Source: Phycisphaeraceae bacterium (GTDB lineage: Bacteria; Planctomycetota; Phycisphaerae; Phycisphaerales; UBA1924). From it: DNA of 64,000 bases. The position numbers and the translations under genes were made by a program. The stretch covers positions 124,001 to 188,000 of the forward strand of contig JAHBXL010000005.1 of NCBI GenBank assembly GCA_019636495.1, given 5' to 3'. The notes under the pieces are model-generated. The model was not told where the DNA came from and ran no database searches. It worked only from the letters and a program-made list of their open reading frames with translations. This document shows positions 1 to 4,169 of the stretch, piece after piece. How positions within the stretch are numbered: the stretch's first letter is position 1; each line of letters starts with the position of its first letter.

Positions 1-120
1 CGAATCGTCGCCAGCGGCACGCCCGAGGCCGTCATGTCCGCCGCGGCGTCGTACACGGGGCGATACCTGAAGAAGCACGTGGAGGCGGAGGCTCGCCGTG
101 CCACCGACCGCCGGCTCTGA
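1..120 (+). CDS. uvrA: UvrA (excinuclease ABC subunit A), C-terminal end only
   Basis: Frame 1 is open from the window edge to a TGA at 118-120 and gives 39 residues. They contain the ending typical of UvrA, with SGTPEAV followed by SYTGRYLKKH (family pattern GTPeev...S.TGryL). UvrA is the damage-sensing ATPase of nucleotide excision repair. Only the extreme C-terminus is present, so the ABC signature and zinc modules cannot be checked. Identification rests on this short tail, which is distinctive. A perfect hairpin overlaps its stop codon. Confidence 0.82.
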   Translation, partial: RIVASGTPEAVMSAAASYTGRYLKKHVEAEARRATDRRL

Positions 121-131
121 GGCGGTCGGTG
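102..131 (+). terminator. Hairpin overlapping the uvrA stop codon
   Basis: CACCGACCGCC (102-112) pairs perfectly with GGCGGTCGGTG (121-131) across an 8-nt loop that contains the TGA stop. No T-tract follows, so it is not a textbook intrinsic terminator. It may still act in 3'-end formation or protection. Confidence 0.4.
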
Positions 132-447
132 CTGATGACCGCCGCACGCCGCGTCTGTCCCGCCGTGACGAGGAAGGTCCCCAGAAGTCATGAAGAGAAC
201 GGAGGCACGGCGAGAGTGGGGCGAGCGAGGCGCGGTCCAAGCCGGGTACGCTGACCTTCGCCTGCTCTGCAGGCTGCAAGGCCATGCAAATGGGGTGGAG
301 TAAAGGCAGCGAAGCACCGGGCGAGCCCGGTGGCAATCGACCTGTGCCCGCTCCGCGGCTCAAGAAGAGGCAAGAGCCGTAGGGCACTGGCCACTCGGCC
401 CAAAGCGGCCGCGTGACCAGTGGCACTTCAAGTCAAAGAAGTCACCT
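121..447. other. Spacer without a convincing gene
   Basis: No gene is recognisable. A 37-codon frame starts at ATG 190 and stops at TAA 301-303. The same frame is then open from 304 into the next gene at 448. That next gene may therefore be an older, longer reading frame with an in-frame stop at 301, or may start at a non-canonical codon. I see nothing in the encoded residues that resembles a known family. Confidence 0.4.
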
Positions 448-945
448 GTGCCACCCGCCGATGCCGCGCTGCTTGAGATGATCGACAGGATCCTGGCTCG
501 CGACTCTGACGCTGTGCAAGAGGTTGTGACGCCACTCAGCAAGCCCGCCGAGCGCATGCACAACGTCGCCGAGCGATTGCGCACAGGCCGATTGGCCGAA
601 GAGTACTTTCTTGCGCACAGCCAAGCCATAGCGAGTGTCGCGCCGACGCTCATACTCGATCACCGCGCGCTGGCTCGGGGCTACGACTTCGGCATCCGCG
701 AGCGTGACGGCATCGCTATTGAGGTCAAAGGTCTCAAGCAGAAGCGCGGCGGCATCGCCTTTACCGATCGCGAGTGGCCTGAGGCCAAGGTGCGCCGCGG
801 CGACTTCTGGCTTGTCGTTGTCGGCAACATCGACACCAACCCGATCGCGCGCCTGATTCCCGATCCGGCAACTTCGTTGAATGCGGAGTGCCGGTATCAG
901 ACCACCATCGCTGCATCCTGGCGTGCGATGGTCGCGGTCGCCTGA
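448..945 (+). CDS. DUF3883 (NO VEIN C-terminal-like) domain protein
   Basis: 165 residues from a GTG start. The core GYDFGIRERDG...IEVKGLKQKRGGIAFTD...EW..A...GDFWLVVV fits the DUF3883 domain, a PD-(D/E)XK-like fold found in restriction- and defence-associated proteins. An upstream TGRLAEEYF helix is typical of the segment before it. No fused helicase or nuclease domain is present, so this is either a stand-alone domain or the 3' remnant of a larger protein. The frame stays open upstream to 304 without an ATG, and no good ribosome site precedes 448, so the start is uncertain. Codon use is less GC-biased than in the core genes. Family call fairly likely, biological role unknown. Confidence 0.55.
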   Translation: MPPADAALLEMIDRILARDSDAVQEVVTPLSKPAERMHNVAERLRTGRLAEEYFLAHSQAIASVAPTLILDHRALARGYDFGIRERDGIAIEVKGLKQKRGGIAFTDREWPEAKVRRGDFWLVVVGNIDTNPIARLIPDPATSLNAECRYQTTIAASWRAMVAVA

Positions 946-973
946 GTCAGTTGTCCCGAACGCCTCGCCCGTT

Positions 974-1112
974 CGCCCCAACGGGGCGATGGGTTGTAGC
1001 CACGGGTGGAGCGAAGCCGCTTTGGGCCTCGCGGAACCCGTGGCGAGGTTTCGTTATCCTCTTCCCGCCCCGGAGGGGCGGAGGAGGTTTCGCGGACAGC
1101 GAGAGGACCACG
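974..1112 (+). repeat. REP-type repeat, copy A (upstream of the transposase)
   Basis: Three inverted repeats follow one another: CGCCCC/GGGGCG (974-988), CCACGGGT (1000-1007) with ACCCGTGG (1036-1043), and CCCGCCCC/GGGGCGG near 1064-1082. GTAG (996-999) sits directly at the 5' foot of the central hairpin, the layout of REP elements recognised by REP-associated tyrosine transposases. The end of the repeat runs up to the transposase ATG. Confidence 0.75.
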
Positions 1113-1565
1113 ATGCCCGGCACCTACTCGCAGATTCTGCTGCACCTCGTCTTCTCCACCAAGCACCGCGAACCGTGGATCACCGCCGACATCGCGGAGC
1201 GTCTCTATCCCTACATGGGGGGCATCGTGCGGGGCGAGAAGGGAGTGCTGTACGACATCGGCGGCGTGGAAGACCACGTCCACATGTGTTTGCGGTGGCG
1301 GCCCGACGGAAGCGTGTCGGACCTGATGCGTGCCGTCAAGGCGAACTCGTCAAAGTGGCTCCATGACACGTTCCCGAATCTCGGCGCGTTCGCGTGGCAG
1401 GAGGGATACAGCGTGTTCTCAGTGAGCAAGTCGCAGGACGGAGCCGTCAAGTCGTACATCGCCGGACAGCACGAACATCACAAGAGAGACGACTTCAAGT
1501 CCGAGTTGCTGCGAATGCTCCGCCTGCATGAGATCGAGTTCGACGAGCGGTATGTCTTCGATTGA
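1113..1565 (+). CDS. Y1/HUH transposase, RAYT-like (IS200/IS605 superfamily)
   Basis: 150 residues, the usual size for a single-domain Y1 transposase. The HUH metal site is HVH at residues 55-57 (VEDHVHM). The nucleophile is probably Tyr115 in KSYIAGQ, followed by the family's HEHHK segment. Such enzymes cut and join single-stranded DNA at hairpin ends. The gene starts at ATG 1113, at the exact right edge of repeat A, and a second copy of that repeat follows at 1679-1834. No tnpB is present. The GTAG-plus-hairpin flanks favour a REP-associated (domesticated RAYT) rather than a self-mobile IS200. Intact, with both catalytic motifs present. Confidence 0.85.
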   Translation: MPGTYSQILLHLVFSTKHREPWITADIAERLYPYMGGIVRGEKGVLYDIGGVEDHVHMCLRWRPDGSVSDLMRAVKANSSKWLHDTFPNLGAFAWQEGYSVFSVSKSQDGAVKSYIAGQHEHHKRDDFKSELLRMLRLHEIEFDERYVFD

Positions 1566-1583
1566 TTTGCCGTGCGGCAGGAT

Positions 1584-1907
1584 GCTCCCTCCGCCCCGCC
1601 GGGGCGGGATGGAAAGACCGAACTCTGTTCCACGGGTTGCGCTTCGCCCGCGGAAGCGAGGCTTCATCATCCACTTTCCGCCCCAGCGGGGCGCAGGGTT
1701 GTAGCCACGGGTGGAGCGAGGCCGCTTTGGGCCTCGCGGAACCCGTGGAAGCGGAACCCGTGGAAGCATGGTTTCATTGTCCTCTTCCCGCCCCGGAGGG
1801 GCGGAGGCGGTTTCGCGTACTGCGAAAGGACCACGGTGCCGTCGTGCGCTCCCTCCGCCCCGCCGGGGCGGGATGGAAAGACCGAACTCTGTTCCACGGG
1901 TTGCGCT
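1584..1907 (+). repeat. 60-bp direct repeat pair linked to the RAYT
   Basis: A 60-bp sequence at 1584-1643 recurs at 1848-1907 with an offset of 264 bp. It contains the inverted repeat CCGCCCC/GGGGCGG and ends in TTCCACGGGTTGCGCT, one arm of the REP hairpin. The two copies frame repeat copy B and form a BIME-like composite. Confidence 0.7.
1679..1834 (+). repeat. REP-type repeat, copy B (downstream of the transposase)
   Basis: Same order of elements as copy A: CGCCCC/GGGGCG, GTAG (1701-1704), CCACGGGT (1705-1712) with ACCCGTGG (1741-1748), then the CCCGCCCC/GGGGCGG hairpin and the GAAAGGACCACG segment that precedes the transposase start in copy A. A short internal tandem of GGAACCCGTGGAAGC-like units is extra here. 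Confidence 0.7.
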
Positions 1908-1972
1908 CGCCCGCGAGGCGCGGGCCGCGCTTCACCCGTGGCTACACTCCGCGGCCCCGTTCGGGGCCGAAT
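1894..1972 (-). repeat. REP-type repeat, inverted copy D
   Basis: Read on the minus strand, GTAG (complement of 1942-1945) is followed by CCACGGGT (complement of 1934-1941), pairing with ACCCGTGG (complement of 1894-1901). The arm CGGCCCC/GGGGCCG at about 1952-1968 corresponds to the first hairpin of copies A and B. The HNH gene stop codon lies inside the GTAG foot. Confidence 0.65.
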
Positions 1973-2652
1973 GAAGCGCGCGGCAGTCTCTCCCGTCCCG
2001 CCCCGCGGCCGATATTGCAGTCCGAGCAGAGCGTACGCAGGTTCGAAGCATCGTTGGTCCCGCCGCGGGAGACGGGCACGATGTGATCGACGTGCAGCCC
2101 CGCGCGATGCCTCGACTTGGCGCACGCCCCGCATATCGAGCACGCGAACCCGTCTCGCTCCAGCACCTGCCAGCGCAGCCCGAGCCGCACCTGCTCCCGC
2201 CGCCGACGACGACCCGCCTTCTGCCCCATCTCGATCATCGCCTCTCGCGTCAGCGTCCCCCGATACACTCGCGCAAGCAACTTGCACGCCCGGCGGATGC
2301 TCCCCCATCGCTCGTAGTAGGCCTTGCCCGAGTACCGGCCGTACCGCTTCAACATCGTCTCCCCCGGCGGGTAGCCCACCTTCCGCCATACCCGCTCAAG
2401 GTTCCGGACCAGATCCGCGGCGTCGATCGGCTCAAGATGCGGCACGGCCGCGCCGCTCTTGATCAGCGTCTCCCGCCAGGTCCCGAACCGCTTCCGCAAC
2501 GTCTTCTGGCTACACGGCCGGTCCTTCCACCTTTGGTAGTTCTTGAACGAGGGCACCGTTCCCTTGTGCAGCCGCACAAACTTCCGGATCCCCTTCAGGA
2601 TCTCCTCATCCGATGGATGCCGCTTGGCGTGAATGTCAAACTCGAACGCCAT
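1942..2652 (-). CDS. HNH endonuclease with two homing-endonuclease-associated repeats
   Basis: 236 residues from ATG 2652, preceded by a purine-rich GGAAGGGGG ribosome site; a longer frame to 2796 lacks one. Residues 13-68 and 76-125 look like two helical repeats seen N-terminal to HNH domains (pattern ...W...R.A...G). The C-terminal nuclease has C171-x2-C174, HVDH (187-190) as metal and catalytic site, an Asn at about 204 and C209-x2-C212, all intact. Such proteins are free-standing homing-type or restriction nucleases. The last residues (after about 220) are encoded by the REP repeat, and the TAG stop is part of its GTAG. The partner or target is unknown. Confidence 0.75.
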   Translation of the reverse strand: MAFEFDIHAKRHPSDEEILKGIRKFVRLHKGTVPSFKNYQRWKDRPCSQKTLRKRFGTWRETLIKSGAAVPHLEPIDAADLVRNLERVWRKVGYPPGETMLKRYGRYSGKAYYERWGSIRRACKLLARVYRGTLTREAMIEMGQKAGRRRRREQVRLGLRWQVLERDGFACSICGACAKSRHRAGLHVDHIVPVSRGGTNDASNLRTLCSDCNIGRGAGRERLPRASFGPERGRGV

Positions 2653-2829
2653 GCGTTGCCCCCTTCCGGCGTGTGCCGGCAAGCGCGCAGACTGGAACGC
2701 GACCAAGGGGGAAAGTGTACCACGCAGTAAACTATCTGTCAACATTTTGTTTGGGTATCGTCCGACTCGCCTGCCGCACCAGCCGCGCGGTTCCAACTAT
2801 TTGCCATCACCGTATTTACGGCAACACCC

Positions 2830-2932
2830 GCGCCGGAGACCGAGCCCCGGACCCCGGAACCCGGAACCCGAGCCCCCCACATCCCACATCCCACATCCCA
2901 CATCGCACATCCGACATCCCACTTCCCACCTC
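2830..2932 (-). repeat. Heptamer tandem array, composite (CCCGG type then CCACATC type)
   Basis: From 2830 six 7-bp units of the form NNCCCGG/A run to 2871. After a phase slip, eight units of CCACATC and close variants run from 2877 to 2932. On the minus strand the second set reads GATGTGG, the same family as 7624-7791. The last unit overlaps the aminotransferase stop codon (2931-2933). Confidence 0.85.
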
Positions 2933-4169
2933 ACCCCCGCCCCAGGTTCTCGCGGCTCATCATCAACTCCAGCGTCCCGCAGACGATGTCGACATCGCGC
3001 TCCGTCAGGTCGTTGAAGAACGGCAGCGCGATGGTCCGCGTGCTGACGCTCTCGGCAATGGGGAAATCGCCCGCGCGGCCGCGCACCTGCCCCTCCCGCG
3101 CCAGCGCCTCGTAGAACGGCTGCGTGTGGATGCACGGGAAATAGTCCGATGCGCCGATCTCGTGCCGGCGCAGCCCCGCGATGATGCGGTCGCGCTCATC
3201 GCGCGTCCACGCGCCCGGCCCGCCCAGACGCACCACGAACACGAACCACGACATCTCCGTCTCGGGCAGCAGCGTCGGCAGGATCAGGTCGTGATGCCCC
3301 GACAAGCGCTTGAAATACATGTTCGCCACGTGCTGCCGCTTGCGGATGATCTCGTCGAGCCGGCGCATCTGCGCCACGCCCAGCGCGGCGTTCAACTCCG
3401 ACATTCGAAAGTTATATCCGAGCCGCTCGTGACTCAGCCACGAACCGACCGACCCGCCCCCGCCCCCGATCGCCCCCGCCGTCGGCGCTGCGCCCGCCTC
3501 CGCCGCGCTGGGCCGCTCGCGCGCATCGGCGATCGCGCGGCCCTGGTTCCGCATCGAGCGGCACAGGTTCGCCAGACGACGGTCATCGGTCACGATGCAC
3601 CCGCCCTCGCCCGTCGTGATCTGCTTGTTCGGATAGAACGCCAGAACGCCGATCCGCCCGAAACTCCCCGCGCGCCGGCCCCGATGCGACACCCCCAGCG
3701 CCTCGCAGCAGTCCTCGACCAGCGGGATCTCGTGCCGCTGCGCGATCGCCTCGTACTCGTCCATGTACGCCGGATTGCCGAACGTCTCCACCGCGACAAT
3801 CGCCTTCGTTCGCGGCGTGATCGCCGCGGCGAGTTTCTCGGGGTCCATGTTCAGCGTGCGCGGACAAACATCAACAAACACCGGCTTGGCCCCGACATAC
3901 AGAATGCAGTTCGCGGAGGCGACAAAGGAGAACGGAGTCGTAATGACCTCGTCGCCGGGGCCGATTCCGAGGGCGAGGAGCGCGAGGTGGAGGCCGGCGG
4001 TTCCGCTGGAGACGGCGACGCCGTGTGCGCGGTCGGCCGAAGCGGCGACGGCCTGCTCGAACCTCTCGGCCATGGGGCCGAGGGCGAGGCGGCCGGACTT
4101 CATCGTCTGCACGACGAGGTCGATCTCGGCGTTGGTGATGTCGGGGCGGGAGAGGGGGATTTCGTGCAT
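2931..4169 (-). CDS. DegT/DnrJ/EryC1/StrS-family PLP aminotransferase
   Basis: 412 residues. The family motifs are intact: SSGTAGLHLALLALGIGPGD (54-73), the TPFSFVASAN segment, VEDCCEALG (aspartate that contacts the PLP nitrogen, about 153) and the PLP lysine K182 in FYPNKQITTGEGG. These enzymes transaminate keto-sugars for surface-glycan or antibiotic sugar synthesis. A Gly/Ala-rich insert lies at about 218-243, where relatives are shorter. The ATG lies 2 nt after the dnaA stop, so the two are almost certainly co-transcribed, which is odd for this enzyme class. No other nucleotide-sugar gene is near, so the substrate cannot be assigned. Confidence 0.85.
   Translation of the reverse strand: MHEIPLSRPDITNAEIDLVVQTMKSGRLALGPMAERFEQAVAASADRAHGVAVSSGTAGLHLALLALGIGPGDEVITTPFSFVASANCILYVGAKPVFVDVCPRTLNMDPEKLAAAITPRTKAIVAVETFGNPAYMDEYEAIAQRHEIPLVEDCCEALGVSHRGRRAGSFGRIGVLAFYPNKQITTGEGGCIVTDDRRLANLCRSMRNQGRAIADARERPSAAEAGAAPTAGAIGGGGGSVGSWLSHERLGYNFRMSELNAALGVAQMRRLDEIIRKRQHVANMYFKRLSGHHDLILPTLLPETEMSWFVFVVRLGGPGAWTRDERDRIIAGLRRHEIGASDYFPCIHTQPFYEALAREGQVRGRAGDFPIAESVSTRTIALPFFNDLTERDVDIVCGTLELMMSRENLGRG

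Follow-up and report, generated by a model that had tools for sequence, protein, structure and literature searches.

A probable IS200-class transposon of Phycisphaerae with inverted, composite REP-like units as its termini

Positions 974-1972 of the window (the whole stretch of 64,000 nucleotides analysed here, from a Phycisphaeraceae bacterium) encode an intact Y1 (HUH) transposase of 150 residues, with GTAG-footed CCACGGGT hairpins on both sides, and also hold a second copy of the ends from which the gene is deleted. We consider that the element is probably an IS200-class transposon of Phycisphaerae (Planctomycetota) whose inverted termini are composite REP-like units, in each of which a small hairpin H1 is followed after 6-9 nt by a GTAG foot and the large hairpin H2 and then, about 20 nt further on, by a second small hairpin, H3. 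At the level of sequence, the anatomy of the element, the spread of its units (whole, gene-less and paired, or solo) and the link between repeat and transposase are established.

The window contains the word CCACGGGT 12 times, where dinucleotide shuffles predict 3.05 (0 of 100 shuffles reached 12), and 8 of the 12 copies fell in 974-1972. An earlier sequence-only reading had placed GTAG directly before the hairpin in copies A and B and, inverted, in copy D, on both sides of an intact transposase of 150 residues; both statements were confirmed (Table 1). Beyond that reading, each hairpin copy was found to be part of a larger unit, in the order small H1, GTAG, large H2, small H3, and 974-1972 was seen to hold two copies of the element. 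In the first, the gene stands between a left end and a decayed right end. The second, at 1679-1972, has an internal deletion: up to and including the start codon it agrees with the first left end (133/162 identical), and from there it passes straight into right-end sequence, 68/69 identical to that of the first copy. Neither this deleted copy nor the degenerate inverted unit at 1585-1696 was part of the earlier reading.

Table 1. Features of the element and of its internally deleted copy, in window coordinates
Feature	Position	Strand	Basis
Left end, small terminal hairpin H1 (CGCCCC-AAC-GGGGCG)	974-988	+	Sequence; homology with the C18 copy begins at window 972
GTAG foot, copy A	996-999	+	Sequence, pattern search
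H2, large hairpin CCACGGGT...ACCCGTGG, copy A	1000-1043	+	Sequence, word counts, pattern search
Left end, small inner hairpin H3 (CCGCCCC-GGA-GGGGCGG)	1065-1081	+	Sequence; model R1 match at window 971-1087, 110.4 bits
tnpA, Y1 HUH transposase, 150 aa	1113-1565	+	Pfam 89.5 bits; NCBIfam IS200 74.1 bits; catalytic motifs intact
Degenerate right-end unit, inverted; H3 and first H2 arm retained, second arm gone	1585-1696	-	Model R1 46.7 bits; sequence
Copy B, the second unit of left-end type; GTAG 1701-1704, ACCCGTGG arm duplicated	1676-1810	+	Model R1 94.4 bits
Left-end remnant through the tnpA start codon, then deletion joint to the right end	1811-1848		Identities 133/162, then 68/69
Copy D, the unit of the right end; minus-strand GTAG 1942-1945, H1 1953-1968	1849-1971	-	Model R1 88.3 bits; sequence

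Among the neighbours of the element, a NOV_C gene (PF13020, window 448-945) ends 28 nt before H1; a gene 73% identical to it lies directly upstream of the element at locus L036 (841-1326), in a genome from another family of the class. An HNH endonuclease with homing-associated repeats (PF18780, PF01844) is called on the minus strand at 1942-2796, its frame as called extending into the right-end unit, and a run of imperfect CCCACATC repeats lies between genes at about 2875-2935. No tnpB was recognised among the ORFs listed beside tnpA. A search for phage carriage gave 0 matches in 50,697 phage records, and PADLOC, used to look for a defence function, returned no match for the transposase.

The sequence-only reading had named the enzyme a RAYT, and this label did not hold. 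The protein belongs to the Pfam family Y1_Tnp and passed the NCBIfam IS200/IS605 transposase model (74.1 bits against a cut-off of 55), whereas it failed the RAYT model (15.2 bits against 80), and it has YIAGQHEHH with no Y---NP motif. Two other Y1 proteins of the same genome fitted the RAYT model far better, at 94.2 and 77.5 bits. The closest solved structures by sequence were ISDra2 and IS608, which were also the nearest fold neighbours in Foldseek (E 5e-9, against 5.9e-5 for the E. coli TnpAREP 4er8), and in a 40-row tree, in which long branches were flagged, three RAYTs stood apart from the rest with a starred support of 97/95. On these grounds a RAYT (TnpAREP, class 2) identity was rejected. 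The motifs DHVH, WQ and YIAGQHEHH match the signature of TnpAY1 subclass 1.2 (DH[IV]H, WQ, Y---Q--HH, about 148 aa), and the protein has a C-terminal extension with a predicted helix at residues 128-138, which may correspond to the C-terminal domain of about 30 aa described for that subclass. By its motifs, the window enzyme is assigned to TnpAY1 subclass 1.2 of Quentin et al.

Further Y1 relatives were seen in the same genome. In L003 (C18:25777) and L004 (C23:245979) the catalytic Tyr is replaced by His and Asp, respectively, with the ORF still open. Four Y1_Tnp proteins (L006, L008, L009 and L010) carry NHVH or THVH with YVLEMQ-like motifs; judged by eye from these motifs, they are similar to class 3 (YV[VI]xEQ) in the scheme of Quentin et al. 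A distant IS200-like transposase, L005 (C9:53775), lies among many CACCGCTTCAGCGGTG hairpins that have GTAG on the 3' side instead.

The genome-wide count of GTAG hairpins proposed in the sequence-only reading was carried out with a pattern for the whole hairpin with its foot, and gave 6 places in the 4.08-Mb genome against 0 in the backwards control. A covariance model, R1, was built from 52 units, and half of its pairs (10/20) have two-sided changes. When 150 of 4794 first-look candidates were scored, at least 11 R1 units were found in the genome; three transposase loci (C31, which is the window, C18 and C5) account for 9, and the other 2 lie elsewhere (C1 and C12). Among the candidates scored, the repeat is low copy in its own genome. 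Homology with the C18 copy begins at window 972, at the foot of H1, and 546 of 690 columns are identical. A solo unit with an altered stem (GTAGCCGGGGGG...; L213, C12:1162) was overlooked by the strict pattern.

The strict pattern was then found in 53 of the 298 genomes of the class, with 374 copies in total, 40 at most in any one genome, and 0 control matches in the 298. The repeat occurs there solo, in inverted pairs and around the gene. It was present in 28 of the 32 genomes with a close transposase and in 25 of the 266 without (Fisher 1.3e-20, kinship ignored), the copies summing to 293 and 81, respectively. Eleven repeat-bearing genomes of the class had no transposase at 1e-20; at 1e-5, fragments appeared in one of them (G216) and nothing in the other 10. 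In a phylum-wide sample the repeat occurred in 14 of 392 genomes, 7 of them outside the class, and of these 7, four had a transposase at least 69% identical, two had more distant ones only and one had none. The sequence-only reading had asked whether the repeat was found only here, or was common in genomes without the transposase. It is neither private to its own genome nor independent of the enzyme, and relics remain in some genomes without the enzyme. These results indicate that the earlier interpretation stood in part: REP-like GTAG hairpins inverted around a Y1 gene do occur in many genomes and are tied to the transposase, but the enzyme is not a RAYT.

Relatives of the transposase were present in 106 of the 298 class genomes at 1e-20, and 80 loci were added from named records, mostly of Planctomycetota, followed by Acidobacteriota, Verrucomicrobiota and others. 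Because the loci were found by protein only, their flanks are unbiased towards hairpins. Of 110 loci given, 7 without an ORF and 5 with flanks too short were set aside, leaving 98, from which 91 were kept for counting stems after duplicate proteins, L105 and L106 were dropped. The flanks of these 91 relatives held 483 perfect stems of at least 7 bp, with GTAG as the 5' foot in 72 and NTAG in 109; on the 3' side the figures were 20 and 26. The same foot was found on both inverted flanks at 46 of the 91 loci, compared with 10 of 91 when the downstream flank was read direct. A further 72 loci were added, 60 of them more distant relatives, and the 187 loci then given were reduced to 158 distinct proteins by removing 12 without an ORF and the duplicate proteins. 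Their flanks contained 400 composite units (GTAG 110, ATAG 39, TTAG 37, GTTG 20), and an NTNG-footed unit was present in 135 of the 158 relatives and absent in 23. In the relatives' units a small hairpin is separated by 6-9 nt from the foot (GTAG, ATAG, TTAG or GTTG), after which come a large hairpin and another small one, and the units are inverted between the two ends.

A relative on a Persicobacter plasmid (Bacteroidota) has the inverted composite with TTAG/ATAG feet, and the plasmid carries 5 TTAG hairpins of that kind; in Bernardetia, also of Bacteroidota, no unit was common to both sides of the gene. The hairpin of locus L147 occurred 7 times in its Pyrinomonadaceae genome (Acidobacteriota), with a control of 0. 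A loose pattern, NTAGCCNNNNNC..., told nothing when searched in 8 distant genomes, since in 7 of them its backwards control scored more matches. Among 186 loci searched, 7 distinct ones (L025, L030, L034, L037, L041, L080 and L089) have a small unannotated protein with a tail like ALALASAMQIEDGEAGL just before the left end. It is sometimes a C-terminal remnant and also adjoins a gene-less pair (L199); two such proteins tested against Pfam had no match. This protein may be a landing site or a passenger of the element.

Whole units were found at unrelated sites in four genomes (G124, G021, G169 and G203), and homology mostly stopped at the small terminal hairpins. Genome G124 has four gene-bearing copies, 90-94% identical, and 5 of the 6 copy pairs align over 728-741 columns. 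These alignments have both limits in or at H1, and the flanks beyond are unrelated, whereas the remaining pair aligns over 1150 columns, having an upstream stretch in common. The gene-bearing pairs of G021 (86% alike), G169 (81%) and G203 (93%) have ends that behave in the same way, save in G203, where about 14 nt of homology lie outside H1 on the left and one copy stops at the edge of the fetched stretch. Gene-less units are dispersed too: a pair of such paired units in G203 is identical at 258 of 271 positions, with unrelated flanks, and among the listed places sharing a contig, a subset of all copies, those at most 320 nt apart were convergent in 19 cases and divergent in 2. A search for an empty site, made with the joined flanks of one G124 copy, gave no match in two genus-mates, an empty answer that is uninformative.

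Three other explanations were weighed against the transposon. The hairpins could be transcription terminators or other host elements that lie beside the gene by chance, and GC-rich hairpins are indeed common near gene ends. Against this, foot and H1 keep a fixed register (a gap of 6-9 nt in 187 of 192 NTAG units), H1 was present in 164 of 176 GTAG hairpins though it was not in the search pattern, and near-identical pairs have unrelated flanks. In addition, 33 NTAG composites were counted in the 82 flank segments of 41 long named loci, while 328 strand-segments distant from the gene had 2, no T run follows H2 in the aligned units, and Rfam gave no family match in window 1-4000 at E 0.5. We therefore regard a chance association with host elements as highly improbable. 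A true RAYT-REPtron, in which a domesticated, single-copy TnpAREP spreads REPs and is itself immobile, is favoured by several features of the repeat: as in REP, BIME and REPIN systems of class 2, the hairpin has a GTAG foot on its 5' side, is inverted around the gene and occurs solo and in convergent, REPIN-like pairs, and passages of PMC6006769 and PMC8266576 give GT[AG]G feet as the RAYT substrate. It is nevertheless unlikely. Besides the lack of Y---NP and the score below the RAYT cut-off, which place the protein in another class, the unit here is about 115 nt long with three hairpins, compared with 20-40 nt, and its low copy number (at most 40 per class genome) differs from that of RAYT REPs, for which a passage of PMC2817692 gives usually more than 100. 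The gene-bearing unit is itself dispersed over several unrelated sites, which is IS-like and unlike REPtrons; according to a passage of PMC6006769, RAYT-REP units seem not to move by transposition as a whole.

The remaining alternative is an ordinary IS200/IS605 element of subclass 1.1, whose subterminal hairpins would be the GTAG hairpins and whose decayed ends would be the solo copies. The match to the IS200 model, the fold and the multicopy units of some genomes speak for it, and the protein family, the fold and the end hairpins with a tetranucleotide on their 5' side are shared with elements such as IS608 and ISDra2. However, the ends here are inverted repeats with the same foot, whereas IS200/IS605 elements are described in a passage of PMC2817692 as being without terminal inverted repeats; the hairpins lie on one strand there and are inverted on both ends here. 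The extra small hairpins H1 and H3, and the lack of a recognised tnpB nearby, are further differences. HH after the Tyr and WQ in place of W[TS] depart from subclass 1.1, and gene-less convergent pairs recur across many genomes. An element of the ordinary kind thus seems improbable to us.

Within the known Y1 groups, the enzyme agrees with TnpAY1 subclass 1.2 in its DH[IV]H, WQ and Y---Q--HH motifs, its length of about 150 residues and its IS200-related class 1 character, and perhaps in its C-terminal extension. The passages of Quentin et al. 2018 on this subclass (PMC6006769) describe it as without REPs and without IS properties and as mostly from Cyanobacteria and Bacteroidetes, whereas we observed inverted GTAG-type ends and multicopy units, and relatives mainly from Planctomycetota and Acidobacteriota. 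A Y1 transposase between terminal inverted repeats also recalls the TIRYT/TIRtron elements treated in passages of Di Nocera et al. 2013 (PMC3733652), but, by passages of PMC6006769, 20 of the 26 described fall in subclass 2.1 with an HTH domain, unlike the window protein, and most of their repeats are GGGG[AT][CG]A[CG], which is not the window motif. GTAG repeats are themselves known in Planctomycetes: passages of PMC3733652 report many tyrosine transposase genes with flanking repeats in R. baltica and refer to a figure of GTAG families that includes those of R. baltica. In the literature searched we found no report of REP-like ends on subclass 1.2; the known R. baltica families may overlap with the repeat described here.

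For the transposon favoured here, a mechanism can be proposed by analogy with the family, in which, as set out in passages of PMC8266576, HUH/Tyr enzymes cleave ssDNA and a hairpin with its foot is the recognition signal. At an ssDNA stage the transposase would bind H2 and the foot and would cut beside the unit, perhaps in a pyrimidine tract 5' of H1. It may in this way move whole elements as ssDNA, as well as gene-less paired ends (REPIN- or MITE-like, such as 1679-1972) and single units. The circle pathway of IS608 is not simply transferable, because with inverted ends the recognised form would be present at one end only on each strand; the two ends might be handled separately, each on its own strand, or they might, being inverted, fold back on each other. 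A CT-bearing pyrimidine tract was found at most 7 nt 5' of H1 in 96 of 161 GTAG units, whereas shifted windows gave 43, 40 and 32; this tract is a candidate cut site. The guide rule, by which an AG foot calls for a CT cut and a TG foot for a CA cut, was not borne out in 192 xTAG and 31 xTTG units: CT 5' of H1 was moderately raised for xTAG (78/192, versus 49/192 and 48/190 in shifted windows), and xTTG units, where CA is expected, had CT in 19/31 and CA in 12/31. A pyrimidine tract may be all that lies behind the CT excess.

Few bacterial repeats are as common as REPs, and their origin from transposons is open, the RAYTs looking domesticated and immobile. Tagged hairpins of this kind have so far been tied to that other group of transposases; their presence at the ends of a class 1 gene, with the gene-bearing unit at several sites within one genome, makes the step from IS to REP testable, and would correct the published view of subclass 1.2 as lacking REPs. 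The element would also be a candidate source of many hairpins of the GCCCC-NNNN-GGGGC type near genes in Planctomycetota, Acidobacteriota and Verrucomicrobiota. We tentatively suggest, as a possibility that falls somewhat short of even chances, that it is a living intermediate between IS200/IS605 and RAYT-REP systems, in the form of a class 1 transposon that is autonomous and still mobile, has GTAG-tagged REP termini and sheds solo and paired REPs. If so, either REP systems had two or more separate origins, or the GTAG foot would be older than the split between class 1 and class 2. The element may show how genome-wide hairpin repeats began.
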